Origin: Apostichopus japonicus
Lineage: Eukaryota; Echinodermata; Holothuroidea; Aspidochirotida; Stichopodidae
Length of the DNA: 64,000 nucleotides
Reading direction: 5' to 3'
Assembly: GCF_037975245.1 (NCBI RefSeq)
Contig: NC_092576.1
Coordinates: 4,356,001 to 4,420,000 of the forward strand
In this document: positions 6,139 to 52,688 of the stretch, one piece after another
Numbering within the stretch: position 1 is the first letter of the stretch
Layout: each line of letters opens with the position of its first letter
The notes under the pieces: model-generated
What the model was told of the DNA's origin: nothing
Database searches by the model: none
Seen by the model: the letters and a program-made list of their open reading frames with translations, nothing else
Program-made: the position numbers and the translations under genes

Positions 6139-6174
<36 letters not shown>

Positions 6175-8551: not shown

Positions 8552-8848
8552 CAGTCGCGTAGCCAGGAATTTGCCAAGGGAGGGGCGAAACTGTAGATTC
8601 GGCATTGCAAACTATCTAAGCGTAGCGCCACCATGTTTGGCGCGAAGCGCACAAGAAAATTTTGGCTGAAAATGCCTCCCAGATCGCTGGAAATGGCACT
8701 TCCCAGGCCTTGTAAGTTGCATCTTAGCATTTTCTCTTTTGTAAATACTAGTGATATCATACAAACATTAAAAAAAAAATTAAAAAAATATGCTCAAGGG
8801 GGCGGGGGCAGCTGCCCCCTTCGGCCCCCCCCCCTGGCTACGCGCCTG
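8552..8848. mobile_element. hAT-type MITE inserted only in duplicate copy A
   Basis: The element starts CAGTCGCGTAGCCAGG and ends CCTGGCTACGCGCCTG, which are near-perfect inverted termini. It is flanked by an exact 8-bp target duplication CCACTTAT (8544-8551 and 8849-8856). Copy B has the unoccupied site with a single CCACTTAT at 19905-19912. An 8-bp duplication with CAG...CTG ends is typical of the hAT superfamily. It has no transposase, so it is non-autonomous. Confidence 0.93.
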
Positions 8849-9331
8849 CCACTTATATCATAAAGGCATATATCCCCGCAGTACCCGCAGTTCCCTACGT
8901 ACGTCATATATAGTGACGAATACTACTGGTAATAATGATAACATGATCATCGAAATCGTAAACATAGAAAGCCAGTTTCATTGATTGTATGTCACAAATT
9001 ACATGATCACTGATAGCATATATGCAACAGCAACATCCGCCATCAACAGTGCAACACGATGGTCAAGCGAGTAAAATATGGAACGCCTTGTCAACGATAG
9101 CATGTCCACTAGTAGCACAGCCACTTATGGCCTGGCCCACCGATAACGAGCATGACCATAGGTTTTTACCCGAATCTCCCGGCCTCCTGGTTTCATATTC
9201 TATTCTCCCGGTTTTTTAATCTTTCATCACTTGCGACATTTCTGACAATAGCCAACAGTTAGTCCTATGCTTAGTAATTCCCCACAGTAACGCTGAACAG
9301 GAAAGGCTATTCAGTGTAGTTCGCAAGAATA

Positions 9332-10528: not shown

Positions 10529-13500
10529 ATGATTTGTTGTAATGCCGCTGTGTGGCGTCTGAATCTTGTCCTGCTGATGACTGCCAGTGTGGCCTTCATG
10601 TTTCGAATAAGTGGGCCGGATGATCCATGTGAAGTTAAAATTACAGGTCAGTAAAACCAAAGTATCTTATTCCCCGTGGCGTGAGCAAGGGTGTGTGTGG
10701 GTGGGGGGGGGGGGTATGAACCGACTCTATCGTCAGGCTGAAACAAACCGTTCATGCCGGGGAATTTGTGCTTCACATTTCAGTAGGAAATGAATTAAAG
10801 CACTTCCTCGGAGTATATGATAAAGGGGTTTGTCGTTACCTAAATTTTTTGGAGAACTTTAGACTCCCACCTCCCCTCACCTCTTCCTTATATTTGAAAT
10901 AATTTTCACGTGCCTGTTTAATTTACATTTGTCTTTTGAGAGTGTGATCTCTATTAATTCGATTCATTTAAATTATTACTTTATACTTTTATCGGCTATC
11001 AGCGTCAATAAGTCAACTTTCAAAGATTTTTTTGTGAATAATAATATTGTAGATTTTATCGTTTACTACATTGCATAGGTATTATAAAACATGCATCTTA
11101 GTCCATGGTTAATGTTGGCCTATTCAAATAGTGATATAGTTAATCCATCAAAATGTTGACTGGAGTCAAAATCGAGTGTCTACCCAGTTTCTCTGTTTGT
11201 TTATTGTTGGCCAGAAATGTATTAAATAGCTAAATAAAAGGGTTCTTTTTTTTGGGATCGCACTTTAATTCCTCCCACTATTAACTAAAAGAATTCCAAA
11301 ATTACCTCGAATGTTACAGAATGACTCCATATCACTACATGGTATGTAATTGAATCCTTTTGAATTTTTCTTTAAGGGACTTTCTTTCCTGCACTGTTGG
11401 CTTCAAATTGTGTTTAAAATTATCCATACCCGCATCTTCGTCAATGCACCATTTTTGATGACGTTACATGATATAGATATAAACTGAAGTTATACTCATG
11501 ACTTCTATAGTCGAAGAGGAGCTTAAGAAAAGTCGAATAAGTATTAACTCCATTCTTCCTTTATAACTGCCTTCGCGACACTTTTGTAAGTCCAACTTTT
11601 TTGAAATTATACTCTATAAAGACATGTTACTATTATTCTATATATTTTTTCTTATACTCAAATTCATGTGATCAAATGAAGTCAACTTATAACCTTTCAT
11701 GTTAGGGGAGAGGTTGAATCTTATCTTCGGTGAACAAAAGGTTATTCACGATTATTCGAACGTAATTTCGAATCATTGAACATAATTATGTGAATATATA
11801 TTGTGCAAATAGTATTGTGCAAAGGCGGCAAAATAGGGTTGATTGATTACAAATCAGGGACGTGGGACGGAAGGGGGTGGGGGTTAGTTCATACTTCGAT
11901 GGTTAATATGATAAGATATATTTTTGAAGGGACGCCAAACAAAGATAACTAAAAGCTTTTCGACAAATAGATGGTCTATGCAAATATAACACTTGTCACA
12001 TATAAAATTCAAGGTTTACCTTTGGGAAAGAGGCACTTGGTATTAATAAAGAAAAGGAGGGAGCACCTTTTGAGGTTTTTCCACAAAGCACTTTCCCCTG
12101 TATCCCCCGGCTGTTCCAACCCTGGTATTGAACTTTTTTTATTAAGATTAAGCGTTGATGTGTTACAGCTAATTGTAACGAAATATAATCAAATGAAAAG
12201 ATTAAAAGGTAAATGTTATAGTTTTACAGACATACTATATTACGTTCCAACTTTTTATTTCAAAAATCTGGACTACAGACTGATCTTTTGATGCATTTAA
12301 ACAGGGTTGAGAACAGCGGAAAGTATTAAGGCGTATACAGTTCACAAATGTTGGGCCTTTTCGATCACCGTGTGTGGTAATTCATATTGCTGTAAAAATA
12401 CATTCATAAGTTGAGATAGGTTTTACGTTTCTTCTTCTGGTGGTTTTGACTTTATCACAAACATCTAGAATTAGAAACTGCCTTTCGATGCAGACTACAT
12501 CTAGAAGTTGCCTGATATATTGGGAAGCAACAATATTTTAGTATTTTAGTCGAGAATCATCTTAATCATCCGACGATGATTAGTACATTCATCAGCTGAA
12601 CTATGATACTAAAAGTTGTTTACATTTTGATTAAAAACGAAGTCACCTATTTTAATAAGCGAGACGCAATATATACAAAATCAAGATGTTGCTTTCCAAT
12701 TCTGATAACAGGACTTTGGGCGGATGGCTTAAAGCTTTCTTTCGATCCAAACCCACTAAGGCTTGACGTCCAGGAAACCATAGATATTTCTCTTTACGTG
12801 TGTAAGTATTAAACTGTGTGCAACAATTGAGTGCCTATTGTTCTCATATCCCCATGAGCTCATCAGCAATAACCTCTTAATTTCACCGATTAAACCAATG
12901 CAATATATTCCAATCATCATTTTTGATCAAATATTTTAGAAAAAAAACATCCTCAATGAACAGTTGTATGTATTGATGCAGTTGTTAAAAAGTCCAACTT
13001 AAATGCGATCATACTTGAAGCAGTTCTTTACAATAAAGGAGTTTACCCCTGTTCGACCTCGCAAGAGGTCCTACGGGGGATAATATTTAAGTTTTGTAGA
13101 ATAGACCCTTTTTTTCTAGGGAAAGTTGTCTATTATTCAAACAGGGAGATGCTGAGAAGTGAAGTATTGTTCGATTAACATTGTTAAGAAGCCATAAATA
13201 AACAGGAGGTCGGAACTGAGGAGCCAATTAGGTAGGGATCACTAAAGGGGGAGGAATTTCTAATTAAATGGGAATACAAGACAGAGCGGTTTCTATTGTT
13301 TGGGTCGGAAGTGGTTGCTACTTAGTTGGAGTTTTGGAGTTGTACTTAGTGTATAAGTACACCTGGAATTTGGGGGCTAGACCCACTTTAGTCCAAATTA
13401 CATCATTATCTATTGATGTTAATGGTGATTAGGTCAGTTCATACTTCCGCGACAGGACGGCTGAAAACCTAGTAGCGTCTAACAGAGCTAGTAATATACT

Positions 13501-16500
13501 TTATTAGTATCGGTTTATTAATTATTAACTCCCTGTACTATAGTTGGTAAATAAACAAATCAAATAAGCCCACTATGAGCGGAAAACATATTTCAAAAAA
13601 TGAGGTATGATAACCTTTAGTAGTTTGATAGAAAATGAATCTCTATTCTCGTAAATTTCAAACGGAAATATCTGGAACAGAAACAATATGGTAACTTTCT
13701 GTTTTCCGTTTTTCGATTTCTTTTTCATTATCCATTATAAAGAGTATTACGCCGAAAGGTTATTGGGTGGGTTTCACTCTGTTTCAATCACGTTATGGAT
13801 ATATTATTGTTAAATACATCGATTTTACTCACTAAAAAGGCACTGACACACACACACACAAATTAATTAAAAGAAAACCCTTGTAATTTCCCGATTTTGT
13901 AATCCTTCTTCCTAGATGAAGACTTGTGGTTTGGTACTTTTACCGTCCATTTGGAAAACAAACTAAGTGGTGAGACATACGAAAATGTTGGATCTCTCTG
14001 TGGTAAACATGAAAGCCCGCTCTGCCCATTAAAGAAAGGAGGTAAGTCTTCAAGCATGGATTTTAAATTAATTTTAGTCTTCATTGCAACAAATTGCAAC
14101 CACTGTGTTTTTCTTTATATTATATTCATGGTTACACGACATTAAGTTTAGAACTTTGTAACGCTAAACTTTTTTTTAACGCTAAACTAATGATAATTTA
14201 AATATAAACATTTATCCATTAATTATGCTAATAAATTGTCCACACTGCATACTTATAAATTTGTGAAACTACATGACATCGTTTAGTTGACACTGAACAC
14301 CATGTAAATGTTTTGTACAAGCAATGCGTGCGTTGTTCAATTGTTGCTTGAAGTCGCTGCAAGTTTTCCTATGGAATTTTGCGGAGTATCTGAGTAACTG
14401 ACACAGTCCTGTAAAGGCTCATTTCGAACAAAACTATAGATGTAGAAATACCCCTGGACTGGCGGTATACAATATATATTACTTCATGGTGCCATCCTTT
14501 AACTGCTAAGAATCTCAGTTAGCTCTAAAAATGTCTTTGCTTTGGTGCAAAATGAGACTGAATATGTTCAATGTATTATTCATTAAGATTAGGTAATTTG
14601 TGGTACCTATTATTATATTAAAAACAATTTAAGAAGCGACGTTCACGTCTCCCAAACTAATAATCTTCTAGAAAAAAAAAATGCATTGTATTACTCGGAG
14701 AACAATAACTCCGATCTGTCAGCCCATGCCAGGCCTAATTAAATACGTTTAATCAATATAATAAATTTGTATTCCATTGTCTTTCAAAGTATTAACGTCG
14801 TACCAGAGACTTAATTTATCGGGTTCGAATATGTACATTTGTCTTGCTGCTTCCTAAATTTTTATTATCTCGTAAAATTCGACTTATCAAGTATTGCTGT
14901 AAATCTATAGGCCCAATGAGAGGATTATCCCATGCTTAGTTGACATGGAAGTGCTAACGTTTGGAGCGACAATGTTATCAAGAAAAGCTTTAAACAGCCA
15001 AATTGATCACAAAAGGTATTCTGTAACCTGCTATTTTTTAAGGTACATTGTAATTCAACGCAGATATAAAGCAAAAAATACAAGGTGGTCGTGTTGCAAC
15101 TAAAACATATCAGACATATTTAAGGGGGAAAAAAAAGATAATTAAAATTGGCAAACCTATCATATTTACTTTGTCCATTTGAGTTGTAACAAAGCAAGGG
15201 CAATCTAATGCGAATAAGTAATAAATTATTATACATGCTAATTTTTTTTTCTATTTGTGAGACGATCGAGCAACGACGTTGAGTTGTATGATCGGCTGTT
15301 ATCAGCTGTGTAAACCTTTTTATAAATCTGAGAACATCCTATATCTCACTATATCTTATTAGAATTGGAAACGCAAAAATACTAGCAGTATACTAAAGCT
15401 TAAACGTACTGTTTTAAACTTGATAGCTTTTATTAAGGGCTTACTTTTACATCTAAACTTATATTTATTTCGTGTTTATATGGCAACTCTATCATTAAGG
15501 GCTTAGCTTATGTCTTAATTTAAACTTATTTCGTTTGATAGAAACTCTATCCTTTGATAGCTTTTGTTAAGGGCTTACTTTATATCTTTACTTATATTTA
15601 TTTTGTTTTATAGAAACTCTCTCATTTCACGAGACAGCGGTGATTCCATCGACTTTTGTGGACAAGGTGTGTTCAAATTTACGTATTTGTTTTCTAAACG
15701 TATAGACAAATTCTTCATTTCGAATATTGATTATAAGAAACACCTGTGAATTCTAAGCACACTGACGTTTGCCATTTTGTGAACCTTATGTCATGTATGC
15801 CAATTGCTTAGTTCATCTACGAAGTTAAACGCATTTTGAGTTTTACATTGTTGCATTTTTAATGTTATATATTTAAAAACAATTTGGTTAGGTATAGTTA
15901 CTGAAAGACGTTGCGATGTTATCAAATGATCGAGGACTTTTGCGTATTGTGTTATATTTACAGAAGAAACTGTTAATCTTATCCGGTGGTCTGTGAAGGA
16001 AATAGTGTTTCAATCATGCCAGCAATGACAAGAACTGCGAATACGTATAATGATATGCACATATTATTACTTGGATGTGCAGACTATATATTAGGAAGGG
16101 TTATATACCGGTAATAGATAATTGAAGTATAGTCTCTTTGCGATAAGTTATCAATTCCGGGGGCCTAAATACCATTACAGAATGTGTTAGACAACGACCC
16201 AAGATTCAAATAGTTTTAAGCCTTGTAACGCGAGCAGAGCTAACAGATTATGTAGCTTTTATACAATTAAACATATATGTTATTAATGTTCCAAGGTACG
16301 ATTTCATATCAATCTTTTATAATCTTTTATATCATATATGATACAAATGCATAGGACTATTCGCAAAGGTCACCCCCTGTTCATTATAACTTTTATTTGT
16401 TATATTTTGTATTTCAGGGAATCTATTCTGGCAACATCAAAGCCTTCAATGAAGATGACGTTGTTATCATTGGGCTGTACATTTCCAACTGCAGTGTATC

Positions 16501-16504
16501 TTAG
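10529..16504 (+). CDS. ML-domain lipid-binding protein, copy B (complete, 5 exons, 157 aa)
   Basis: Exons 10529-10646, 12712-12801, 13916-14041, 15614-15666 and 16418-16504 total 474 nt, giving 157 residues plus TAG; every junction is GT-AG with matching phase. Exon 1 starts at an ATG and encodes a hydrophobic N-terminus (LNLVLLMTASVAFMF) that looks like a signal peptide, followed by DDPCEVKI with the first conserved cysteine. Exon 2 gives WADGLKLSFDPNPL, exon 3 the SLCGKHESPLCP cysteine pair, exon 4 a short IPSTF strand and exon 5 the C-terminal strands ending in NCSVS. Length and cysteine layout suit a secreted ML-domain protein (GM2 activator/NPC2/MD-2 superfamily), expected to bind a lipid or glycolipid. 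Exon 3 carries one extra codon and seven replacements relative to copy A. The exact ligand and subfamily cannot be told from sequence alone. Confidence 0.82.
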
Positions 16505-16832
16505 ACAATTTATCGGCGCACTATACCTTTTGCACTACATGCTAAGTACATTAAAAGCGAGCGTAGCTTCCAAAGCTAGATTCCGATCAATTTCAGCCTA
16601 CTTTTCCTTCAGCCTAACTTTAGCGCATTATAGTCCAGTTCTACAGTTTCTTGCAAAGTAGCTTTTACACTTGTCGTATGTTATAGAATATAATTAATTA
16701 CATGCCTTTGGTTTTAAAATGTTAATGGATTTGACGATTTTTATTTCACCATTAGGTGAAAGGAAATTAAAAGGACACAGAGTTCTGAATATATACAAGG
16801 AAAGCTACAAGAGGTGTTAATATTATGCTACT

Positions 16833-17184
16833 CAAGGGCGTAGGAACCAGGGGGCTGGGGGCGCCAGCCCCCCCCTCCCCAGTGAAAAACATGGAGGGGC
16901 GGAAGTATCATTCCGCCCCCCCCCCGCTTCGCAAGTCAAAAAACCCCTTTTTCATTTCCAAATGAGAAAAAAATCTCATTTGGAGCACCAAATTGCATCT
17001 AAGGCCAGGTGAAAATGCAAAATTATATACAAAATGGAGTGGGTGGGTTGAAGTGTGCTATATTGCACCAAATTGCATCTGAGGCCACCTGGAAATGCAA
17101 AAAAAAAACCTCCCCTTACACCCCTCCCCCAGGCCGGCCATCAGCCTTCAGCCCCCCACTCAAAAGTACCTTCCTACGCCACTG
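16833..17184. mobile_element. hAT-type MITE inserted only in duplicate copy B
   Basis: The termini are CAAGGGCGTAGGAA and TTCCTACGCCACTG, imperfect inverted repeats. It is flanked by an exact 8-bp duplication ATGCTACT (16825-16832 and 17185-17192). Copy A keeps the empty site with one ATGCTACT at 5881-5888. The interior is C/G-rich near both ends and contains an AATGAGA...TCTCATT inverted motif. The same family recurs at 24315-24675. Confidence 0.93.
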
Positions 17185-17460
17185 ATGCTACTTAAATCGC
17201 ATATTAACATGTTATCATACACAGGGAATGTATCAGTTGCGATCCTCTTCTGTGAATTTCGTAAGGAATTGTAAACGGCCAGCAGAAAAAGTTATTATTT
17301 CTCAGTGAGAACTGACTTCCGTGTTAATAAGCACAGTGTTACTATGAACAGCGTTAATATGAACATGTTAATATGAACAAGTGTTATAATATGGCAAAAA
17401 ACTGTTATATTGTTTAAGTAACATTGTTATACTATTGAGCTATAACTTGATATACAATTT

Positions 17461-17461
17461 A

Positions 17462-17518
<57 letters not shown>
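17461..17518. repeat. AT dinucleotide microsatellite (copy B allele)
   Basis: Longer counterpart of the (AT)n tract at 6134-6170, in the otherwise matching region of the duplicate. Confidence 0.9.
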
Positions 17519-17522
<4 letters not shown>

Positions 17523-20500
17523 GCTGCTAAGGACTTCCAAGTTACTCGAAGTTTACTAACTAACGACATTGTTTACTCTTTCTTAATTAATCATTTATCA
17601 AGGGGACTTTCCAGCGTTTGATGAGAGATCGTTGTCATATCGGTGCTAATGTAGGCTACGTGATATATTTGCAGATCTCTAAACTAAGCCGGGTAACACG
17701 ATTGCGTGAAACCGCGTATCAGTAGGCCCTATGCGATCACGCTTGGTGAGCTAGCTTATACAGACGCGCTTGGTGATTGACTAATTCAAACTTTCAAGGT
17801 TCTACAAAAGTGCTTTAGAAACACAATTTACGATGCTTAAAACTAATAGTCTGAGCCGAAGTTCACATTTATGTTTCAAAATATATAGCCCTTCAATAAG
17901 TTCGAAGAGCATTGTATATACTATTAGTGATTAACTCACCGTGCCGTTATGATATGCATTCAGAGACTGCAACTTGCTAAGTTAGGACAAATATGACATC
18001 AGCACGGCCCTCTGTTCATTTTGGGCGTGGCGGAAAGGGCAATTGGTAATGATTTGAACATATCGTAAAATATAATATTACGTTAGTGTTTGAGACTTGT
18101 AATAATAGTTTTCCAACCGATGGTCTGATACTTAACCTGTGAGGGTATTTTAATTTTTTCAGTTTAGTTTAAAATTTAGTATCCAATACAAATAACCAGA
18201 GATAAAATTGGTCAAATTTTAATTGGTTCTCGAAGTAGTTATGTAGCATTCATTAACGTTAACTATTTTTTTTTTGTCTTAAATAACCTTTGTACAATAA
18301 TTGGCTCAAGTACAAGTGTTTTTGTAGAACTCTTCAGCAAACAACGAAATTTCTCATTTCACATTTCGTATTAGTTTGCAAAGTAGGAAGCAAAACTTAA
18401 ATATAAGAAAGATCAACGAAGATTACTAACGTTGCAAGCACTGATCATATCTTATCGTAAACGGAAATAAAAAATACTTGTCATTATAAGCAATAGTAAT
18501 TGAATCGACACTGCTTTTAGGTTACCTATAGAGGAAAAAAAAACTTTGAGTTTTGCTGTATTCTAACCCAAATAAAATATCAAATGCAAACAATTAAATC
18601 TTTTTGTTATTTCTCGTTGTCTCCTACTCTTTAAAATCATTGTTCACGTATCACAACATGAAAAGTAACAGTCCTGATTTTTTTTTTTTTTAATTCAGAA
18701 AGAAAAACATGAATCAGAAAAAAATTTCAACACTTTCTTAATTCTGATGACTTTCGGTTAACAGGTCACGAGGTATACGTCAAAATGATACCGAAAGTTT
18801 CCACCCAGTTTGACCGGAAGCGAGTAATTCTCTTGGTAAAAACTATATTAGATACTTTCTTTTCCGTTCTTGGATAAAGTGGTACCATTTCAACATCTAA
18901 TTGAAAGCTATAATGACATCCATTGTTATGAAAGGGGGTTAATGGGACAAAAAGCTTGTTTGGTGCAACAGGTCAAAGGTCGACAAGTTCATGACACACA
19001 TTTTTACTAGAAAATGCACTTTGCGAGAATGCACTTTGCGAGAATACTTATACCAACGGATCAAAACAGTACAAAGGCAGTCTCGGTGAACGTACTGCTT
19101 ATAAATATATGTGTTCGTTTGATATTATATATTTATAGAGAACATAAGAGTATACACTTAGGGCATGTATTCTCCACGGGATAATGTTATTTTATATGAA
19201 TTAGCCCAAAAAATGTTGTTTTTCTTTATATGTAATTTTAATACGTTACGTAATCCACTTATTGCAAATTGTCCCATGGAAAACAAAAATGTCCCTTTGA
19301 ACACCGTTGCTTATTACTTGGACGAATATGTGGAGAAAAGACTTTCAAATAGGCCTACTGTTTCAATCTTCGAAATTGAGTTAGTATTAGGCCTACAATG
19401 AGCCCTAAAGAGAAAAAAATGGGGTTGACACGAGGACAAGCCTAAAGGTATGGCAAGACATAACGAAGCGTATCATGGTAAAACCTTGTTTAAAATTAAC
19501 CCATTTGACACAATTTTCTTTGTATTTCCTGCTTTTTTTTGTCCCACTAAGTTACACTGTGCTTTATAAAGGTCAACAGAAACGCTCTCGTTTGTACAAA
19601 CGAACGAAATCTTCGTACTAACAGTGATAGCTGGAACCGGACCAACCCAGTATACATGGTCAAATATTAAATGACATATGTAGCCTAACTTCCACTATGT
19701 ACCAATACAAAACTAATCAATACAAACTAATCAATAAGAGAGTGTGTATCTAGATTTCCTTTAGACCTGCAGCGCGATCATCAACCTCGAAGTACGCCAC
19801 TTTGAGAACGTTAATTCTACCGGTAGCGTTGACAGCATGATAATCTATAGCATGATAATCAATAGCACGATAATCGTAAACGTAGTAATCTATAGATAGC
19901 ATGTCCACTTATATCATAAAGGCATATATATCCCGCAGCTACGTACGTCATATATAGTGACGAATACTACTGGTAATCATGATAACATGATCATCGATAT
20001 CGTAAACATAGAAAGCCAGTTTCATTGATTGTATGTCACAAATTACATGATCACCGATAGCATATATGCAACAGCAGCATCCGCCATCAACAGTGCAACA
20101 CGATGGTCAAGCAAGTAAAATATGGAACGCCTTGTCAACGATAGCATGTTCACCAGTAGCACAGCCACTTATGGCCTGGCCCACCGATAACGAGCATGAC
20201 CATAGGTTTTTACCCGAATCTCCCGGCCTCCTGGTTTCATATTCTATTCTCCCGGTTTTTTTAATCTTTCATCACTTGCGACATTTCTGACAATAGCCAA
20301 AAGTTAGTCCTATGCTTAGTAATTCCCCACAGTAACGCTGAACAGGAAAGGCTATTCAGTGTAGTTCGCAAGAATAAGACAGAGACAATCGGTCAAGTCT
20401 CAAGCTTGATGGGACTCTATCTAGCATATACTAGCCATGAAGTCACAGTACCCAGAGTCCACTGTTCCCTGTTTCAAATGGAAGCATATATACTGAAGAA

Positions 20501-27900: not shown

Positions 27901-30900
27901 AAACAATCATGAAATGTTGGATGGGGTGGGGACGGGGAGGGGTGTGAGAGGTGTATGGTATCCTTGATGAGGGTTGAATTGATTAAAGAATCAAAATATG
28001 TAACTGAAGTCTGAAATACTTAACACTGAAATACTATAATTTAAATGAATGGTTCAGAGCTTTGTCACATTAATCATGGGGCACTATTGAGGTTTTTCAA
28101 AATACTCTGTGTGTGTGTATGTGGGAGGGGGTTACAAATGCCAATCAATATAGAGACTAAACCATTACTCCTAGCTGAATTTTTTTTTTAAGGGTGATCA
28201 ATCGATATTACACTAGTGATGTCTGACCTGTTTCTGAGTCCGGAGTTAAATATGTTATCCTCTCCAGAGGAAACATATCAAGATGGCTTTCGCTTGTCAT
28301 GTGGACCTACAGCAAAGAAAGAAATATTAGCCAAAAGAATCAATCGATACTACTGTGCACGGCAAGGATGAATCAATTACATCAAATGACACAGATATCT
28401 CGGTAGTAGACCAGCAGTGCCTATTTGTTAACATGATGACGTTGAGATCATTCAGATGACATGATCACATTATTACCTTGTAGTTACGGAAGCCATCATT
28501 TTTCCTCTCACAAGCTTGGTAAACCAAACTCCCTGGCTCTAGATTTGTGAGAGTTACATGCAGCGGCTTGGGAGATCTTCGGTTGGAGCCATACAATCTC
28601 CTCAATTGACCGGCCAGACGATCAATTTCCTGAAAAGATTGAACAGTGAGGATACGATGAGTCAATAAATTCCACTGCACTGCACGGTTATGGGTATATT
28701 TCCAGGTGTTGCAACTTTTCACATAACCTTGAGCTATGGTTTAACATTCTTATCCACTTGTGGAATAGTCATAGAGCAGTACAATATTTATGCGTCTGGA
28801 CTACTCTCATTCCACTTGTGGAATAGTTTTAGAACAGTATAATCAATAATAGTCGGGACTACTTGGATCTGCTTGTGGAACAGTTTTAGAACAGTATAGT
28901 CACTATGAGTCGGGACTATTCTCATGCACTTGTGGAATAGTTTAGAACAGTATAGTCACTATGAGTCGGGACTATTCTCATCCACTTGTGGAATAGTCAT
29001 AGAGCAGTACAATCACTATAAGTCTGGACTACTCTCATCCACTTGTGAAATAGTTTTAGAACAGTATAATCAATATTAGTCGGGACTACTTGGATCTGCT
29101 TGTGGAATAGTTTTAGAACAGTATAGTTACTATGAGTCGGGACTATTCTCATGCACTTGTGGAATAGTTTAGAACAGTATAGTCACTATGAGTCGGGACT
29201 ATTCTCATCCACTTGTGGAATAGTCATAGAGCAGTACAATCACTATGAGTCAGGACTATTCTCATCCACTTGTGGAATAGTTTGGAACAGTATAGTCACT
29301 ATAAGTCTGGACTACTCTCATCCACTTGTGAAATAGTTTTAGAACAGTATAATCAATATTAGTCGGGACTACTTGGATCTGCTTGTGGAATAGTTTTAGA
29401 ACAGTATAGTCACTATGAGTCGGGACTATTCTCATGCACTTGTGGAATAGTTTAGAACAGTATAGTCACTATGAGTCGGGACTATTCTCATCCACTTGTG
29501 GTATAGTCATAGAGCAGTACAATCACTATGAGTCTGCACTACTCTCATCCACTTGTGGAATAGTTTGGAACAGTATAGTCAATATAAGTCTGGACTACTC
29601 TCATCCACTTGTGAAATAGTTTTAAAACAGTATAATCAATATTAGTCGGAACTACTTGGATCTGCTTGTGGAATAGTTTTAGAACAGTAGTCACTATGAG
29701 TCGGGACTATTCTCATGCACTTGTGGAATAGTCATAGAGCAGTACAATCACTATGAGTCAGGACTATTCTCATTCACTTGTGGAATAGTTTAGAACAGTA
29801 TAGTCACTATGAGTCGGGACTATTCTCATCCACTTGTGGAATAGTCATAGAGTAGTACAATCACTATGAGTCAGGACTATTCTCATTCACTTGTGGAATA
29901 GTTTGGAACAGTGTAGTCACTAGGAGTCGGGACTATTCTCATCCACTTGTGGAATAGTCATACAGCAGTACAATCACTATGAGTCTGCACTACTCTCATC
30001 CACTTGTGGAATAGTTTAGAACAGTGTAGTCACTATGAGTCGGGACTATTCTCATGCACTTGTGGAATAGTTTAGAACAGTGTAGTCACTATGCGTCGAG
30101 GCTATTCCACTATGAAAAACACAAGTTCTAGGTAGATGAAAAGGAAAGGCAAGGTACAGATATTCCAGTGATGTCACAATCTGCCACCATGCAATGCTCG
30201 AATTGTTTTCATTAAAATTGTAAGAGGGCATGATAGGTGGGTGGGAGTGGGTCAAATTGTAAATCCCACTTACTGATTTATGTAGGGGCATCAAACTGTA
30301 TGGGATGATAATCTGCACCTTAAAGAACTATTTTATCCTAATATTTCCCCAAATGCACAAAATCCCACAACAATTTAGACAGACTTGCAATGAAGGACGG
30401 ATACCATACTTTACCCCCACTCCACCTCCCCCCACCCCCCTCTCACCTCCTCCAGCCTGTTACATTTCTCGGTATTGTTGCTTCTTGTTATCTAATTCTG
30501 TAAGTTAAACTTGATCTTTAGTACTGCCAATATGTGATCAATGCAATAAATCATTTACTGTGCTTTATAAAACATTCATTTTCAGTTTTATTAACATTCA
30601 TATCTACCTTTTCACTCATGAAACCAGTCAGACCCATATCAACACAGATCTTTGGTATTGTTTCACTTCTCTGGACACTATCAAGTCTTGCATTAATCAT
30701 GTCTTTAATCTCCTTCTTCGTTGGTTTGTCGCTCTTCGTCAAACTGTCTGTTTGTTCTACAGTTAGGAGGCAATGAAACAGTTGACAAATGTTGCTTTCA
30801 AATGAAGTGAATAATTTCAAAATAAAGTGAACAACTTTCTGCTATAAACTTGTCAGTAAAGAGAGCATGAAAAAGAATAGAAAATGGTGACATTTTGTGA

Positions 30901-31632
30901 AGGAAAGCTGATGTCTACAAAACAAACACTGAAGATTAAACTTGAAAGTTGTAAACCTGATGGATTGTGTTAACAATGTTCAGTGAGAGAACTGAACATA
31001 GTTGGAAAAATAGGTCAATTATTTAACAAAATTTGAAAGAAAGATTGGATTGACATGCAGCAATAAAACTACTGTTTACATGCATGTTTACAGCAGATAA
31101 TAAGACAAAAACCTTCACAATGCTGTAACTGCTTGTGTTGCTGTTCCTTTAATTGTTGCTTTTCCTTCTGTTTCATCTTTTTCCATTTCTTGCTTCGCTC
31201 AAATCTCTCCAACCTTCGAGCTGACTTCCTCTGCAGAGTGAAAATGAAAGTATCTAAAGTCACGAAAAGAGAAACAAACATAGTACGTACAGATCATCTT
31301 ACAACATGTTACTTGGACAGAATAGTGATTGTTTCAATGCGATTATCTGCAATAATAAACACTGAGGTCTGGAATGTTTTAACAGTTCATTCAGTTACAA
31401 GATATTGTCACATTTGTTTGATTTTGGTTGGGTTAGTTTAGGGTGGGGGGGGGGGGTTGGGGGATATGATCACCACCTGGTGATTAGATGTCAGTTGACT
31501 CACAGTAAGTTTATTACACTCCTCTGGTGAGGGTGCGTCGTTATCTTTATTACAGCTGACCTCATCTTCATCTGTGTCTGAACTCCAGTAGCCTTGCATT
31601 AACCCATGTAACCATCCTTCCTTACAATCCAT
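24919..31632 (-). CDS. TRMT10B: tRNA (guanine-9-N1)-methyltransferase, TRMT10B homologue (8 exons, 302 aa)
   Basis: Exons in transcript order: 31632-31504, 31230-31113, 30756-30608, 28629-28477, 28306-28228, 27870-27803, 27207-27090 and 25013-24919 (stop TGA). All junctions are GT-AG with agreeing phase; the total is 909 nt. The start MDCKEGW resembles the vertebrate TRMT10B start. Exon 2 is a lysine-rich coiled segment (KKWKKMKQKEKQQLKEQQ). Exons 3-8 form the TRM10 SPOUT methyltransferase domain, with KICVDMGLTGFMSEK, RLAGQLRRLYGSN, RKNDGFRNYK, FPLERITYLTPDSE, VYILGGLVDES (cofactor-pocket motif with the conserved Asp), TARLPISEY, KILSINQIFDIL and a C-terminal PRRKGF. The RRLYGSN and GGLVDES blocks fit TRMT10B better than TRMT10A/C. 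Human TRMT10B makes m1G9 on tRNA-Asp; the same role here is inferred. The upstream 5' UTR is not resolved. Confidence 0.93.
25083..25270. repeat. Short tandem repeat in TRMT10B intron 7
   Basis: About 2.5 copies of a roughly 66-bp unit containing AGTGAGTGAGAAATA and ATCATTAAGGCATGGTCTCA. Confidence 0.8.
25585..26183 (+). mobile_element. 5'-truncated LINE tail (CR1/L2-like reverse transcriptase C-terminus)
   Basis: The frame 25585-25989 reads LFYKSIIQSVITSSIICFFG, then RVRKLAERWIG, SLQSLSSIYEESLMKK, HPFHSIIMFNRSRIRL and KTSRFRNSFLPEAKHLFN. This is the standard C-terminal segment of CR1/L2-type non-LTR retrotransposon reverse transcriptases. A short 3' region follows, with an AATAAAG motif and a terminal TCTATCTGTAATG. 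Catalytic domains are missing, so the copy is 5'-truncated and inactive. It lies in intron 7 of TRMT10B, in the opposite orientation to that gene. Confidence 0.85.
26655..26945. repeat. Tandem repeat containing GACCTCTGTTGACC
   Basis: About 2.5 diverged copies of a roughly 120-bp unit; GACCTCTGTTGACC recurs near 26657, 26791 and 26919. It lies in intron 7 of TRMT10B. Confidence 0.7.
27510..27670. repeat. Two-copy tandem repeat in TRMT10B intron 6
   Basis: A segment with GTGACAATGCT, GAATAG, TATTTATTTACAGTAGC and AAGGCATCATAG is repeated twice in direct orientation, about 78 bases apart. Confidence 0.7.
28745..30105. repeat. Minisatellite array (55-58 bp unit) in TRMT10B intron 3
   Basis: About two dozen copies of a unit built around CACTTGTGGAATAGT, AGAACAGTATAGTCACTATG and AGTCGGGACTATTCTCATC. 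Within the unit, ATAGTC and GACTAT are inverted. Variant units recur in order; two long matching stretches lie 283 bases apart (29151 and 29434), indicating a five-unit higher-order repeat. Open frames through the array are by-products of the repeat. Confidence 0.93.
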
Positions 31633-41500: not shown

Positions 41501-44500
41501 TTAGCAAAATGTGAACAATGATGTCAGATTGAGTGATAATGTTGCCATTTAACGATGGTGAATAACTATGTTTTGTCTAAGTAAATCATCAAAATTGAAA
41601 CTATTTGCCACAAACGTGGTGGATGTTAAGAAGATATAAATCTGGTACATACGTACATTGCTCCAATCGACAGGTGAGAACCAAGAAAAGGAATTTGGTT
41701 GAAATTAGAGTAAAGAAATCTAATTATTCTTTCTTTCTTTTTGGCCCACAGGAGATAGTCTTAGAACTGGAGCAGTACAAATCGTCGTTGAAGAAATATT
41801 TCCGATCTGTTGGAAAGAACTGTGTCGTCTTTGAAAGGAACTTCAAAACGTCACATTTGCAGCTGCAGGTTTGTGAACTTTCAAGCTGTAATACATTTTA
41901 TTATGTTATCTCATGAAAACCTAATATGAAAATGGAAATTTAATGAAATGCATCGGTTGGCTTCTGACTACTGTTCTTTTATTCGTTAAATCTTTTGTTT
42001 TATTTTTTTGACCCCACACCTGTTAGTTGTTCTCTTTGAATCATTACTTAGGTGGTGCCTGTTGATGATGTTGTAACAGACCTGTTAGTTGTTCTCTATG
42101 CATCATTACTTAGGTGGTGCCTGTTGATGATGTTGTAACATACCTGTTAGTTGTTCTCTTTGCATCATTACTTAGGTGGTGCCTGTTGATGATGTTGTAA
42201 CAGACCTGCTAGTTGTTCTCTTTGCATCATTACTAAGGTGGTGCCTGTTGATGATGTTGTAACAGACCTGTTAGTTGTTCTCTTTGCATCATTACTAAGG
42301 TGGTGCCTGTTGATGATGTTGTAACAGACCTGTTAGTTGTTCTCTTTGCATCATTACTTAGGTGGTGCCTGTTGATGATGTTGTAACAGACCTGTTAGTT
42401 GTTCTCTATGCATCATTACTTAGGTGGTGCCTGTTGATGATGTTGTAACAGACCTGTTAGTTGTTCTCTATGCATCATTACTTAGGTGGTGCCTGTTGAT
42501 GATGTTGTAACAGACCTGCTGTTAGTTGTTCTCTTTGCATCATTACTAAGGTGGTGCCTGTTGATGATGTTGTAACAGACCTGTTAGTTGTTCTCTTTGC
42601 ATCATTACTTAGGTGGTGCCTGTTGATGATGTTGTAACAGACCTGTTAGTTGTTCTCTATGCATCATTACTTAGGTGGTGCCTGTTGATGATGTTGTAAC
42701 AGACCTGTTAGTTGTTCTCTATGCATCATTACTTAGGTGGTGCCTGTTGATGATGTTGTAACAGACCTGCTGTTAGTTGTTCTCTTTGCATCATTACTTA
42801 GGTGGTGCCTGTTGATGATGTTGTAACAGACCTGTTAGTTGTTCTCTTTGCATCATTACTTAGGTGGTGCCTGTTGATGATGTTGTAACAGACCTGCTGT
42901 TAGTTGTTCTCTATGCATCATCACTTAGGTGGTGCCTGTTGATGATGTTGTAGCAGACCTGTTAGTTGTTCTCTTTGCATCATTACTTAGGTGGTGCCTG
43001 TTGATGATGTTGTAACAGACCTGTTAGTTGTTCTTTTTGCATCATTACTTAGGTGGTGCCTGTTGATGATGTTGTAACAGACCTGTTAGTTGTTCTCTTT
43101 GCATCATTACTTAGGTGGTGCCTGTTGATGATGTTGTAACAGACCTGTTAGTTGTTCTCTATGCATCATTACTTAGGTGGTGCCTGTTGATGATGTTGTA
43201 ACAGACCTGTTAGTTGTTCTCTATGCATCATTACTTAGGTGGTGCCTGTTGATGATGTTGTAACAGACCTGCTGTTAGTTGTTCTCTTTGCATCATTACT
43301 AAGGTGGTGCCTGTTGATGATGTTGTAACAGACCTGTTAGTTGTTCTCTTTGCATCATTACTTAGGTGGTGCCTGTTGATGATGTTGTAACAGACCTGTT
43401 AGTTGTTCTCTATGCATCATTACTTAGGTGGTGCCTGTTGATGATGTTGTAACAGACCTGTTAGTTGTTCTCTATGCATCATTACTTAGGTGGTGCCTGT
43501 TGATGATGTTGTAACAGACCTGCTGTTAGTTGTTCTCTTTGCATCATTACTTAGGTGGTGCCTGTTGATGATGTTGTAACAGACCTGTTAGTTGTTCTCT
43601 TTGCATCATTACTTAGGTGGTGCCTGTTGATGATGTTGTAACAGACCTGCTGTTAGTTGTTCTCTATGCATCATCACTTAGGTGGTGCCTGTTGATGATG
43701 TTGTAGCAGACCTGTTAGTTGTTCTCTTTGCATCATTACTTAGGTGGTGCCTGTTGATGATGTTGTAACAGACCTGTTAGTTGTTCTTTTTGCATCATTA
43801 CTTAGGTGGTGCCTGTTGATGATGTTGTAACAGACCTGTTAGTTGTTCTCTGTGCATCATTACTTAGGTGGTGCCTGTTGATGATGTTGTAACAGACCTG
43901 TTAGTTGTTCTCTTTGCATCATTACTTAGGTGGTGCCTGTTGATGATGTTGTAACAGACCTGTTAGTTGTTCTCTGTGCATCATTACTTAGGTGGTGCCT
44001 GTTGATGATGTTGTAACAGACCTGTTAGTTGTTCTCTATGCATCATTACTTAGGTGGTGCCTGTTGATGATGTTGTAACAGAGGACATTCTAGAAGAGTT
44101 TCAGAGATTGGCTGATGAACATAACATAGAATTGAACCAGATTCCTAGTCTCAGCGACCTCAAACAGGTTTGTAATATTAAGCATAATATATATTGGTTT
44201 TTGTAGTACTGTGACACTGGAAAACATACCAGCCATGGCCCACTAGGTACTGTGACACTGGTTCACATACCAGCCATGGCCCAGTAGGTACTGTGACATG
44301 GGTAACCCTACCAGCCATGACCCACTAGGAACTGTGACACTGGTACACCTACAAGCCATGGCCCACTAGGTACTGTGACACGGGTAACCCTACCAGCCAT
44401 GGACCACTAGGTACTGTGAAACTGGTACACCTACCAGCCATGGCCCACTAGGTACTGTGACACAGGTAACCCTACCAGCCATGGCCCAGTAGGTACTGTG

Positions 44501-45192
44501 ACAATGGTGAAAGTACTTGGTAGACTGAATGAAGGGTTACCATATATCTATGGTTGAAATGTGGAACACCACACATCACGGGGGAGGGATCTAAGAAGAA
44601 AACTGTTTTGTTAGTTTTGGAAGAATTTTTTTGACTTTTTAGAAGGCCTAACACCAAAATTGTTTAAAATAGTGAGCTTGACTTGGAAGAACTTCCAAAA
44701 TATGTTTCAAAAGGTCTCTTCTTCAGTAATTACAAAGATTTTTTGTATATATACTACTATTGATCACCTTGTTGTACTGGACCTTAAATATATAGGACCA
44801 GTGTGACATTGCCCTCTATTAATGTCTGCTGTGTCTGGAGAGCCCCCTCTTTATCTGAGTTGTCTCGTGCAAAACTACACTCCAGCGCGCCGTCTAAGGT
44901 CTGGTACAAAGTTATTACTGGTATCACACCCGGTATCCACAAAATCATACGGCCAACCCTTTCCTTTCAATATGCTTCGGCTTTTCTATGTAATAGTCTC
45001 CCAGAACATGTCAAATGTGCTCAATATGTTAATAACTTTAAAACTGTACTCAAGACTCATGTTTTCACGGTTGTAGTGTATTATATTTTGTGTACTTGTT
45101 TGTTTTGTGTACAGTGCATCGAGACTCTGCTGTATGTTGTTCTTCATAAGAACTTTTTTATTATTATGATTATTATGATTATTATGATTATG

Positions 45193-45224
<32 letters not shown>

Positions 45225-45225
45225 G

Positions 45226-45260
<35 letters not shown>

Positions 45261-45399
45261 GATTATTATTTTTATTATTATTATTATTATGATTATTATT
45301 ATGATTATTATTATTATTATGATTATTATTATGATTATTATTATTATTATTATTATTATTTTTATTTTTATTATTTTTATTATTATTATTATGATTATG

Positions 45400-45458
<59 letters not shown>

Positions 45459-45465
45459 GATTATT

Positions 45466-45496
<31 letters not shown>

Positions 45497-45534
45497 GTAT
45501 TATGATTATTATGATTATTATTATTATTATTATG

Positions 45535-45584
<50 letters not shown>

Positions 45585-45627
45585 GATTATTATTATGATT
45601 ATTATTATGATTATTATGATTATTATG

Positions 45628-45665
<38 letters not shown>

Positions 45666-47563
45666 GATTATTATCATTATTATCATTATTATGATTATTA
45701 TTATTATTATTATTATAATATGTTAATATTATAGATCTTTGGTCAAAGTGACATTCAGACACCAATAGTGGCATTTCTACAATGATCAGAACCCATTTTG
45801 TCATCCTTTTAGTCAGATGTGGTATTTCTTTGGTTGGCCCCTTGGTTGAATGTAAACTATGTAACAACAATGTTACCAAATGTAAATATCATCTGCAAGT
45901 TCTCCTCATTCCCTCTTACACAAACATACAACATTTGGGGGGGGGGGGGGGGGGGGTTAACATCATTTTATTTATTTCATTCATGTAAAGAAAGAGTAAA
46001 GGTTGGAAATTTCAAGCCCAGTTTGGTTCCATAGAATAAATGTGTTAATCATGAATGTTGTAGCGTCACATATATTAATCACTCTAAATCCAATTGACAG
46101 AGGTTCACTTCTCCTTGTACCCAACAGATCATCTCTGTCGGCGCTCCTTATTTTTACGTCGAGTTGGACAGCGGAGAGAAGCTCCTTCATCGGGTGAAGA
46201 AATTTTTCCCATTGCAGTTTGGCAGGTATTTGTCAATCAATCAATAGTCATAAGCCAAATTGGCCAGTTGACCTCCCCGAAGATTATAAACAATCTTAGG
46301 TTTGTAACCTTTTATAATGTTAATCCGGTGCCTGCCATCTTCGAGTAGCTGGGCTGCAGAATGGCCGGACCAATTGGTTAAATTGTCAATCCATCGTAAA
46401 TGCGGTCGGCCTGGCTTACGTTTGTAACCACAGGGTAGCCCACAGAATACAGCACATGTAAGGCCTCCACAATGTACATGTAAGGCCTCCACAACGTACA
46501 TGTAAGGCCTCCACAACGTACTGCATACAGGTATTTGTGCTCACATATAATACCAATTTGCAGATCTTTCCTTCCTTTTAACCCTTCCATTTTGAACCAA
46601 AAAAAAACAAGCTGTATTGACATGGATTCCACTGTCACCGAGGCAGACCTCGAGTTCTTCAATTGTAACAGGACCAGGTTGTGGCTAACTGGCTACAGAG
46701 CAAATTCAATAAACCGCACCGTTTTGGTCGTGGATCACTCGATTGATTTGAGTTTATGTCTCACAATATTTCATGGAGAGGACAAACTGAAAGATGCAAA
46801 ATAGTTTTGAAGAGAACAAGAGAATTGAGAACAACAAAACAGATGAACAGCACTGAGCAAATGTCCCATTACCCTAATGGAGGGCGGGATGGGTGGGGGA
46901 ATGGGTATGTGTTAAAATAGCACTCCACAAGTAATAAATCTGCTACCTTTAAGCGATGTTTGCCGTTTCTAATCCATTTAACGAAGAATATCATATGGTA
47001 GGTAAAAGGTTGAATTTCTATGGTCCATTGCCAACTTTACTACTAAGGCACATTATCTAGCCATTCGGTGAATGTTAATCTCAAATGTAGCACTAATAGT
47101 CTGCTTGAAATTCGAATGGGGGGGCGAATGGGGCGACCGCATATTTTTTTTTTATGATATCGCTAGTAATTTCAAAATAGAAAATGCTTAGATGCAACTT
47201 ACAAGGCCTGGGAAGTGCCATTTCCTGCGATCTGGGAGGCATTTTCTGCCAAAATTTTCTAGTACGCTTCGTGCCAACTCATGGTGGCGCTACGCTTAGA
47301 TAGTTTGCCTACAAGCTTTGCAACTCCCTTGGCAAATTCCTCGCTACCCGCCAATGTATTTTCATTCCTTTTTTCAGGTATTACTGTAACATTTTTCTAT
47401 TTTTTTTCATTCTTTTTTCAGGGAGGTTCTTGCAGGGAGGGCGCTCTTGAATATGCCGGACCGAGTAGACTGGAAGAATTGTAAGAGCAGTAAAGAAGAC
47501 GAAAAGAATATGGCCGATGAATTCAGATCAAGGTTTAAAAAGTTTGACCCAAATGCGATGTAG
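32562..47563 (+). CDS. CWF19L1: CWF19-like protein 1 homologue (14 exons, 523 aa)
   Basis: Exons: 32562-32584, 33467-33551, 34295-34379, 35220-35321, 36366-36574, 36927-37130, 38186-38299, 38888-38993, 39829-39908, 40432-40524, 41752-41868, 44054-44167, 46128-46225, 47422-47563. They total 1572 nt with every phase consistent; human CWF19L1 is 538 residues. Residues 1-236 form the metallophosphatase-like N-terminal region ([59 protein letters not shown]). A variable linker follows (about 240-309), then a HIT-like CwfJ_C_1 domain ([44 protein letters not shown]) and CwfJ_C_2 ([28 protein letters not shown]). Yeast and human relatives (Drn1, CWF19L1) associate with spliceosome or lariat-debranching machinery; that role here is inferred. 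Intron 11 contains the array of duplicated splice sites described separately. Confidence 0.95.
34658..35060. repeat. ACATACAAATAC-type microsatellite array in CWF19L1 intron 3
   Basis: About 400 bases of ATACAAATAC, ATATACCAAT and AAATAGAAAATACAT variants, arranged as an irregular higher-order repeat of roughly 65-75 bases. All six-frame open frames here ([11 protein letters not shown] and similar) are artefacts of the repeat. Confidence 0.95.
37653..38038. mobile_element. hAT-type MITE in CWF19L1 intron 6
   Basis: It begins CAGGGTTGTCCAACC, followed by TACGGCCCGCGGGCC, and ends GGCTGGACAATCCTG. It is flanked by an exact 8-bp duplication ATTTAAAG (37645-37652 and 38039-38046). This terminus style is shared with hAT/Charlie-type non-autonomous elements of other animals. 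It has no transposase. Confidence 0.92.
38385..38696. mobile_element. MITE with CAGGGATGTGCTCA termini in CWF19L1 intron 7
   Basis: It starts CAGGGATGTGCTCA and ends TGAGCACATCCCTG, a perfect 14-bp inverted terminal repeat. The interior has repeated GGGCGGCACCGGGCGG-type and GCCCAGCA words. No convincing target duplication is visible. Confidence 0.8.
39060..39440. repeat. 60-bp minisatellite in CWF19L1 intron 8
   Basis: About 6.5 copies of a 60-base unit with TTGATTGATAGTTACAGG, GAAGGAATATTCTAGTGGC and TGAAGTTGTTTGCGTAACAC. Because 60 is divisible by 3, a long reverse-strand frame ([17 protein letters not shown]-like) runs through it; it is not a gene. Confidence 0.93.
40800..41180. mobile_element. 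hAT-type MITE in CWF19L1 intron 10
   Basis: It starts CAGTGGCAGAGC and ends GCTCCGCCACTG, with an exact 8-bp duplication CACAGGGG on both sides (40792-40799 and 41181-41188). It includes a forward copy of the shared MITE core (about 40862-40970). Confidence 0.93.
42018..44053 (+). repeat. 62-bp minisatellite duplicating the 3' splice site and start of CWF19L1 exon 12
   Basis: Each unit holds GTGGTGCCTGTTGATGATGT, then TGTAACAGA (together the first 29 bases of exon 12), then a pyrimidine-rich stretch ending CATCATTACTTAG, which is the acceptor of exon 12. From the first GTGGTG at 42052 to the true exon at 44054 is 2002 bases: 26 units of 62 and 6 units of 65 (extra CTG). Units vary at CTCTTTG/CTCTATG/CTCTGTG, TACTTAG/TACTAAG and TTACTT/TCACTT. 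Every unit border is AG followed by GT. Confidence 0.97.
44205..44510. repeat. Minisatellite (about 45-bp unit) in CWF19L1 intron 12
   Basis: About seven copies of a unit with ACTAGGTACTGTGACACTGG and ACACCTACCAGCCATGGCCC, directly after exon 12. Confidence 0.93.
44820..45158 (+). mobile_element. Degenerate LINE 3' fragment (CR1/L2-like) in CWF19L1 intron 12
   Basis: The frame reads [20 protein letters not shown], then [18 protein letters not shown] and, further on, QCIETLLYV. This matches the typical C-terminal tail of CR1/L2-like reverse transcriptases (pattern: aromatic..W/C NSLP..., FK..LKTHLF). The rest of the element is missing. It leads straight into the ATT trinucleotide array, as expected if the array grew from the microsatellite 3' end of such a LINE. 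Confidence 0.75.
45159..45720. repeat. ATT/ATG trinucleotide array, about 560 bp
   Basis: Uninterrupted (TTA)n with scattered GAT, TTT and AGT variants. Open frames of poly-isoleucine (plus) and poly-asparagine (minus) cross it and are artefacts. It directly follows the LINE tail. Confidence 0.97.
46230..46440 (-). mobile_element. Degenerate LINE fragment (endonuclease-reverse transcriptase C-terminus)
   Basis: The minus-strand frame reads [20 protein letters not shown] followed by [15 protein letters not shown]. This is the characteristic C-terminal motif of many LINE open reading frames (basic GRP..RW.DN...W.G). It lies in CWF19L1 intron 13 and is short and inactive. A three-copy repeat of ACATGTAAGGCCTCCACAA follows at about 46452-46516. 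Confidence 0.65.
47137..47345. mobile_element. Degenerate MITE copy with shared core, CWF19L1 intron 13
   Basis: A reverse-strand copy of the shared MITE core lies at about 47189-47310, including TTTCTAGTACGCTTCG, ATGGTGGCGCTACGC and TTAGATAG. It most resembles the element at 8552-8848. It ends with CTTGGCAAATTCCTCGCTACC, resembling the left part of that element in reverse. No intact termini were found. It ends about 75 bases before exon 14. Confidence 0.7.
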
Positions 47564-51218: not shown

Positions 51219-52688
51219 TTATTTAGCGACCGGCTGCGCTATCCTGTGTTTCGCCATGTCTGATTCTATATCGTAAAAAGAGAATTCACTGTATTCATAG
51301 TACTCTGGGACCTGGTAGGTCTTCCCTGAAGAAGCAGAGTCACTTGAAGGGGGAGGCTTCTTATCTGATGACAAAAGAACACAAAGCAAGGATTTCATCA
51401 CAAAGTATAATTAACTTCAATAATAGACCACAAACATTTGCAGTCTTCTTCAACATTATGTGTTGCTTTTCTATCTCACAAATTTCTTTCTTTGCTTTTC
51501 CCAAACTACTGCAAATGTCAAACAGGGAACACAACCACTTTCAGCATTTTTTTTCAGGCCTGCATGCTCAGTTTGTTTTAAATGAACTGATGCTTGACTA
51601 TGTCTTACATTGTTGATTATATGATCCATGGAATTACATACTCCATGAATTACATATTGATAACAGCTTACTTCATTGTCATAGTAACATCTACTACTTT
51701 CATCTTCAAGTAAGTTATCTGTGGATATTTTTTGTGTTATGTTCACTCAAATATCGTTTCACAAATAATTTTTTTTTTTTTTAAACTACTGCATAAAGCA
51801 TTGCACATCAACTCCCTGATCCTTACAAGCCATAAGAATGCTCCATTAAAGATTTAAGTGGACATCTTTAACTTACAGTTAACATTTAGACGATAAGGAC
51901 ATCCTGTCCGACTCCTACCCATTAAAATACTCAGAATTTTTTTTTTTTTTAACTACTGCATAAAGCATTGCACATCAACTCCCTGATCCTTACAAGCCAT
52001 AAGAATGCTCCATTAAAGATTTAAGTGGACATCTTTAACTTACAGTTAACATTAAGACGATTTAAGGACATCCTGTCCGACTCCTACCCCATTAAAATAC
52101 TGAGAATTGTATTTTCTTCATTTTCCTTCTAAACAATTCTACAGTTACAAGTTATTGTACACATACAGTAGCTAACCAACTTACAATTTCCTCCAACATA
52201 TACAGAGTTCTATGGATGGCCTTTCTAAGATAAGAATCAATATCTACTTTACAACATTTTTCGATTACGAGGAAGAACAAATATCACTGTTAGTAAGTTT
52301 CAATATCCCTGATGTTGACTTCATTTACATTGTTCATTGTAAGCTGCTCTTTAAAACAAATTCTTTTGAAGGAATCATGAGGATCCTTTACAAAGTGGTG
52401 GACATGTTATGAATCCTTTGTTAGCAATTCAATTTCCAGCTATTTCAAAACCTTGTGACATTATGAAAATTATGTGCAAGTATTATAAGGCCCATCCATC
52501 CTTACTTTCCAATCCCACCACCCTCCCCCCACGTTCCCAACTTTCACCCCCCCCCACCCTTCCAACCCATAGATCTCCAGTGAAAGAAATATATTACCAG
52601 TTGACTTTGCTGTGGTAGGAGCAGGTTCTTTAGATGTTAATCCTCTCACAAGAATTTGAGCCATAGGTGAAATGGATGGACTTTGAAC
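51219..52688 (-). CDS. NDUFV3: NADH dehydrogenase flavoprotein 3 homologue, C-terminal exons (complex I)
   Basis: Two minus-strand exons fit together: 52688-52598 (91 nt, starts in phase 0) and 51364-51219 (146 nt, ending TAA). They read VQSPSISPMAQILVRGLTSK... and then KKPPPSSDSASSGKTYQVPE, YYEYSEFSFYDIESDMAKHR and IAQPVAK. The last block matches the conserved C-terminus of NDUFV3 (Y..L..HDYS.YTF.DL...L.K.R.PQP), a small accessory subunit on the NADH-binding module of mitochondrial complex I. The N-terminal mitochondrial presequence exon is not established. One candidate is 54445-54366 (KLSRRLFTSTGFATLSFSKY, basic and presequence-like, joining in phase), but its upstream start was not found. 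The gene converges on CWF19L1. Confidence 0.8.
51769..52110. repeat. Direct tandem duplication (about 170 bp x 2) in NDUFV3 intron
   Basis: Two nearly identical copies each start with a T-run, then ACTACTGCATAAAGCATTGC, and end with CATCCTGTCCGACTCCTACC. They differ by only a few bases, so the duplication is recent. Confidence 0.92.

Follow-up and report, generated by a model that had tools for sequence, protein, structure and literature searches.

Tandem repeats that extend across an intron-exon boundary are known from amphioxus, where they were named mirages in the Adh3 gene and were also described in globin genes (PMC3087553). Another mirage was reported for amphioxus PGBD5, in an article which mentions TnC as well (PMC3902484). 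According to the first report many of the copies, not all of them, hold AG/GT signals, and regular splicing is reportedly left undisturbed (PMC3087553). Here we describe an array of this kind in the CWF19L1 gene, located in a 64-kb stretch of echinoderm DNA (64,000 nucleotides, analysed as a whole and called the window from now on). As judged from its letters, the array would be a mirage: the repeat unit spans the intron-exon boundary, the AG|GT splice signals are kept in all 33 copies, and the intact, open exon of a real gene lies alongside. It has the structural features that were tested and differs in its host. A sequence-only reading of this DNA had known of no named class for such a structure, but the class exists in the form of the amphioxus mirages (PMC3087553, PMC3902484). 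In the open-licence PMC literature no echinoderm mirage was found among the matches listed, which is weak evidence of absence.

CWF19L1, itself a spliceosome protein, is encoded on the forward strand of the window. CWF19-like protein 1 of PDB 8ro2 is matched by exon segments located between approximately 33.5 kb and 47.6 kb. When six C-terminal segments were joined, their peptide gave an E-value of 1.8e-88 with this protein, with the match running across the junction HLQLQ|V.PV, and the remaining segments were matched via the reading frames of 27–41.9 kb. The gene carries the Pfam domains CwfJ_C_1 and CwfJ_C_2. Altogether 11 exon segments were matched, three of them weakly (domain E-values of 2.2, 0.0027 and 0.028), and the reference residues of approximately 42–60 and 281–322 were without a match. 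The intron that holds the array (41869–44053, 2185 nt) is located between an exon of 117 nt (41752–41868) and an exon of 114 nt (44054–44167), both of which end at the donor CAG|GTTTGT. We retain the numbers 11 and 12 which the sequence-only reading gave to these exons; exon 12 is the ninth of the 11 matched segments, a rank that has to be read with the three weak segments and the two unmatched protein stretches in mind. It is intact and in frame, starts in phase 0 with 38 open codons, and conserved residues span its junction with exon 11.

The array was called by TRF at positions 42018–44082 of the forward strand with a period of 62, 33.0 copies and 96% matches. Its 62-nt unit consists of 34 nt of intron end and 28 nt of exon start, and one further base is common to the unit at the junction. 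The window contains 33 occurrences of GGTGGTGCCTGTTGATGATGTTGTA, the first G of which is the G of the acceptor AG; this G is found at 42051 for the first occurrence and, 2002 nt further on, at 44053 for the last. Thirty-two units (42018–44019, acceptor G at 42051, 42113 and so on to 43991) precede the last one (44020–44081, type F), which contains the genuine acceptor and exon start. The 32 extra acceptor copies are called decoys in the following, a label with no functional sense implied. The spacing of the units is 62 nt in 26 of 32 cases and 65 nt in the other six, where an extra CTG is present. Eleven unit types follow each other in the order ABCDE CFFGCFFHCICJ CFFGCFFHCICJ KCKF. Units 6–17 are thus the same series as units 18–29: a 12-unit block of 753 bp (42328–43080) is followed by an identical copy of itself (43081–43833), and the first of the two blocks lies in an exact repeat of 801 bp at an offset of 753, which starts at 42298. 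Because the 12-unit block is exactly doubled, the array looks young and unstable, and the exact internal repeat fits a recent change of array length, as seen in one assembly only.

The splice signals were retained throughout the array. The exon start GTGGTGCC was found in 33 of 33 copies, and the acceptor is TTAG in 29 copies and TAAG in four. Pyrimidines account for 14 or 15 of the 20 nt scored in the array copies and for 14 in the real copy, compared with 14–17 in four other CWF19L1 acceptors. Decoys 7, 8, 11, 12, 19, 20, 23 and 24 are identical to the real site over 77 nt on its upstream and 29 nt on its downstream side; consequently, local signals are unable to distinguish these eight from the genuine acceptor. 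A genome search with positions 42018–42300, in which only the best candidates were scored and common words were skipped, returned nine places, all of them inside the array. When a 70-nt window at the real boundary was compared with the DNA upstream of it, a score of 128 was obtained, and the best of 40 shuffles reached 28. The other 13 of the 14 CWF19L1 boundaries tested scored no higher than their best shuffle (three of these were placed 1–3 nt off, which is minor for 70 nt), so that one boundary of 14 in this gene is duplicated.

The core of the sequence-only reading, that the unit combines the 3′ splice site of CWF19L1 itself with the start of the exon and is present in 32 extra copies next to the intact exon, was thus upheld by the TRF call, the count of GGTGGTGCCTGTTGATGATGTTGTA and the boundary score, and the 32 extra tandem acceptors before the exon are confirmed. 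The E-value given above supports its identification of the gene. It had named a lack of exon homology in the unit as something that would speak against it, and the joined peptide matches across the junction. It was right that each copy keeps the exon start, and it was right on the composition of the unit, whereas the lengths of some 33 intron and 29 exon bases needed correction; its statement that TTAG is kept in every copy was wrong.

Exon 11 ends in phase 0. Simple splicing from its donor to a decoy leads in the predicted products to a stop 28–29 codons past the junction, and this holds for all 32 decoys. The predicted product of decoy copy 32 retains CwfJ_C_1 and loses CwfJ_C_2. Only the first decoy retains unique intron upstream, which contains a branch-point-like TTGAC at −41. 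Upstream of the real copy there is nothing but repeat sequence, and the motif there reads TTGAT, at −49. The first acceptor copy follows the exon-11 donor at a distance of 183 nt, which is likely the length of the intron before the array arose.

Several further readings were tried and discarded. RNA structure does not appear to hide the decoys: in folding, the advantage of six tiled units over tiled shuffles is small (11 of 200 were as good). Neither is the real site opened by structure: its probability of being unpaired is 0.0079, barely above that of the decoys (mean 0.0060, range 0.0001–0.0109), and two other CWF19L1 acceptors, with 0.016 and 0.019, lie above both. The real site is therefore not singled out by RNA structure. 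A single fold near it gave a z-score of −2.45 (3 of 200 shuffles as good) against a null that ignores repeats. Apart from AG|GT, donors within the unit were dismissed because of their weak U1 energies, and selection on the exonic half because the share of exonic mutations, about two of ten by a hand count from the unit types, is not significant. Folded as DNA, the hairpin at the unit junction has −1.5 kcal/mol in 62-nt units (z −1.17) and −3.5 kcal/mol in 65-nt units (z −3.49); such a hairpin may aid slippage. At the array's left end no hairpin was found, and the window, scanned against Rfam and for tRNAs, gave no matches.

Duplicated boundaries were also found elsewhere in this genome. A search of the genome for the myosin head family yielded 70 matches, and the best 40 windows, with flanks of 300 bp on each side, covered 42 of them. 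In four of these 40 windows an exon boundary was spanned by a direct repeat (confidence interval 2.8–23.7%). At locus L038 a donor boundary is duplicated on the intron side with a 53-bp unit, giving six donors in the window of that locus including the real one. At L063 (G000:C4:23995869-23997087) approximately 89 nt of exon and donor are present on the intron side in three copies including the real one; its three successive donors CAG|GTGAGA have equal U1 energy (−11.1). At L059 the donor boundary is duplicated on the intron side in two copies, 95.5% identical and 220 bp apart, and L065 has a donor copy within the upstream intron, approximately 400 nt off and 80% identical over 55 nt. As L038 and L063 are less than 15 kb apart on contig 4 and perhaps belong to one gene, the four cases perhaps represent three genes; one of the four is non-tandem, and the confidence interval leaves room for enrichment or depletion. 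As background, two fixed points were examined in each of 480 half-overlapping windows of 20 arbitrary 10-kb stretches; a direct repeat crossed one or both of them in 38 windows, and 50 of the 960 points were hit in all. The Fisher p for 4/40 versus 38/480 is 0.55, so that boundaries and other points are duplicated at similar rates; the limits are wide, and the criterion applied to exon windows, a distance of up to 20 nt from the hit edge, was more lenient than the one for random points.

Minisatellites occupy 7210 bp of the 64-kb window versus 3.0% of the 20 arbitrary stretches. Among 38 minisatellites of the window and loci L009–L028, AGGT was present in nine on the forward and five on the reverse strand versus 6.1 expected per strand, which leaves an enrichment unclear. 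TAGGT occurred in seven units forward and four reverse versus 1.8 expected per strand; the sample is small, and the selected window is part of it. A second minisatellite (44206–44508, 41-bp unit, 7.4 copies) lies 39 nt past the donor of exon 12, and several of its copies contain TAG|GTACTG. A TTA-type array of 575 bp is located at 45158–45732; a stop-to-stop frame of 312 residues (44788–45723) runs into and along it. On the minus strand a match to the NDUFV3 family was found at 51231–51323 (Pfam PF15880, E-value 1.1e-9), which makes a second, oppositely oriented gene downstream probable. At the beginning of the window, positions 1–9331 recur at 10955–20376 as a large, directly oriented segmental duplication, 94.9–98.4% identical in three pieces, which could be real or a haplotype duplication of the assembly.

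We consider the array to be probably a passive mirage, the last copy of which is chosen by exon definition. This reading is favoured because of the background rate of duplications and because a proper donor at a normal distance is available for the last copy only. The genome appears to be rich in tandem duplications, some of which would strike splice boundaries and be tolerated. Here, a 62-bp segment across the intron-exon boundary would have been duplicated in tandem to form a minisatellite, which would have grown to 33 copies by unequal exchange or slippage, including the recent exact doubling of 12 units. An origin of this kind would be neutral, and most likely the array is carried passively. 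Exon definition is our best guess for how the last acceptor is found: the last copy would be selected because it alone precedes a real exon, whose donor follows after 114 nt. The other 32 acceptors would be skipped and, if used, would give early-stop transcripts.

Alternatively, the decoys could serve as a recursive ladder. Exon 11 would then be joined to any decoy, and the regenerated CAG|GTGGTG would be spliced onward to the real exon without leaving a trace, which we regard as unlikely. All 33 copies offer AG|GT for this purpose, and transcription reaches the decoys ahead of the real site. The U1 energy of the regenerated site is −7.4 kcal/mol; the exon-11 and exon-12 donors both have −7.0 kcal/mol, two other CWF19L1 donors have −5.0 and −11.7 kcal/mol, and −7.0 is reached by 1.9% of the 3832 GT sites in the window. 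Re-splicing at regenerated sites has been reported for human and fly cells, where the exon junction complex restrains it (PMC6224609, PMC8184009). However, GTGGTG is far from the consensus (−11.6 kcal/mol), the known fly recursive sites are described from long introns (PMC8184009) whereas the array intron has 2.2 kb, and the myosin duplications lie at donors, where repair by re-splicing is inapplicable. Moreover, the correct junction rebuilds the identical site, and the real exon would consequently risk being skipped. It seems doubtful to us that the 32 decoys work as successive recursive splice points, with the GT of the exon start making acceptor arrays self-correcting. If it were true, it would mean, together with the myosin cases, that duplicated boundaries are frequent here and harmless through splicing correction, acceptors being corrected by re-splicing and donors by other means.

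A regulated use of the decoys as poison acceptors, which would cut CWF19L1 output via premature stops and perhaps act as feedback, is very unlikely. It would agree with the stop reached from 32 of 32 decoys, with the copy-32 product that keeps CwfJ_C_1 without CwfJ_C_2, and with the presence of CWF19-like proteins 1 and 2 in PDB 8ro2, but a premature stop is the ordinary outcome of a 62-nt unit and makes selection unnecessary, and unrelated myosin exons show duplicated boundaries too. We find it hard to credit that an intron or exon is being created here according to the tandem-duplication model. Every simple decoy product meets a stop, and the GT sites scored in the unit have −3.8 or weaker, except for the AG|GT itself (−5.8, or −5.9 in TAAG copies), with no second strong donor among them. 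Support for such a process comes from the AGGT in the unit, from the potato RdRp intron that was created by a duplication over an intron-exon boundary (PMC4974935) and from the proposal of mirages as intron precursors (PMC3087553). It is most improbable that the whole array or its copy number is an assembly artefact, with some small room for error in the exact number of copies. The exact 801-bp repeat could equal a duplication made in assembly, and a supplementary legend records that one amphioxus mirage was aberrantly assembled in the genome draft (PMC3087553). Against this, the small number of contigs in the assembly, 35 for 671.6 Mb, suggests that it was built from long reads, which can bridge 2 kb; the 11 unit types stand in a structured order, and duplicated boundaries occur elsewhere in the genome. 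What counts against the passive mirage with exon definition is that local signals fail to separate eight decoys from the real site, and also the position of the first decoy, just 183 nt from the exon-11 donor and preceded by unique intron. If short introns are recognised as units, that is by intron definition, this decoy should win.

The cephalochordate host, which marks the reported range of mirages and not their mechanism, is not found here, as AAA reads Asn in cox1 and the genes stand in the order cox1-nad4L-cox2. Contig C35 (16,099 bp) is a mitochondrial genome. In its cox1, AAA at residues 42, 67, 85, 86, 150, 157, 201, 203 and 438 stands opposite asparagine of COX1 in PDB 7o37 in nine of nine cases, and thus AAA is read as Asn. 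The genes follow in the order cox1, nad4L, cox2, atp6, cox3, nad3, nad4, nad5, nad6 (other strand), cob and trnF, where the names except cox1 and the tRNAs were read from translations. Gene order and AAA as Asn form what we take to be the echinoderm pattern, and the tRNAs after trnF presumably fit the sea urchin and sea cucumber arrangement, not that of sea stars. Pieces of cox1 with TGA codons were also seen at G000:C29:14745-16086 and 30842-31219, which are nuclear mitochondrial DNA or a mitochondrial concatemer.

The array would extend mirages beyond lancelets. It also offers a natural test of splice-site choice, with a 2-kb series of near-identical acceptors separating a donor from its exon: the first copy at 183 nt should win where introns are read from the donor, the last one under exon definition, and recursive splicing should leave intermediates in nascent RNA. 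The four of 40 myosin windows suggest that boundary duplication is frequent in this genome, which bears on the origin of introns and exon boundaries.

In comparison with known systems, recursive splicing at zero-nucleotide sites and RS-exons has the same combination of acceptor and partial donor, with AG|GT rebuilt after splicing (PMC6224609, PMC8184009), and this back-to-back arrangement is present in each of the 33 copies. The array differs in being a tandem minisatellite in an intron of 2.2 kb with a donor motif far from consensus. Intron gain by tandem duplication, as described for ATP2A1, potato RdRp and fission yeast genes, starts from a duplicated segment that also contains AGGT, and in potato RdRp this segment likewise spans an intron-exon boundary; there, a single tandem duplication gave a new intron, in contrast to 33 copies and no new intron known here (PMC4974935). 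The amphioxus mirages of Adh3, BflGb6, BflGb9, TnC and PGBD5 show the same minisatellite-like boundary duplication, with many AG/GT copies and an intact exon alongside, and both acceptor and donor boundaries are affected in the cases reported (PMC3087553, PMC3902484). The unit has 62 nt here versus 150–160 in BflGb6, 157 in BflGb9 and 10–72 in Adh3 (the latter as cited in PMC3087553), and 32 extra copies compare with six and three units in two amphioxus BflGb6 haplotypes, in an echinoderm instead of a lancelet.
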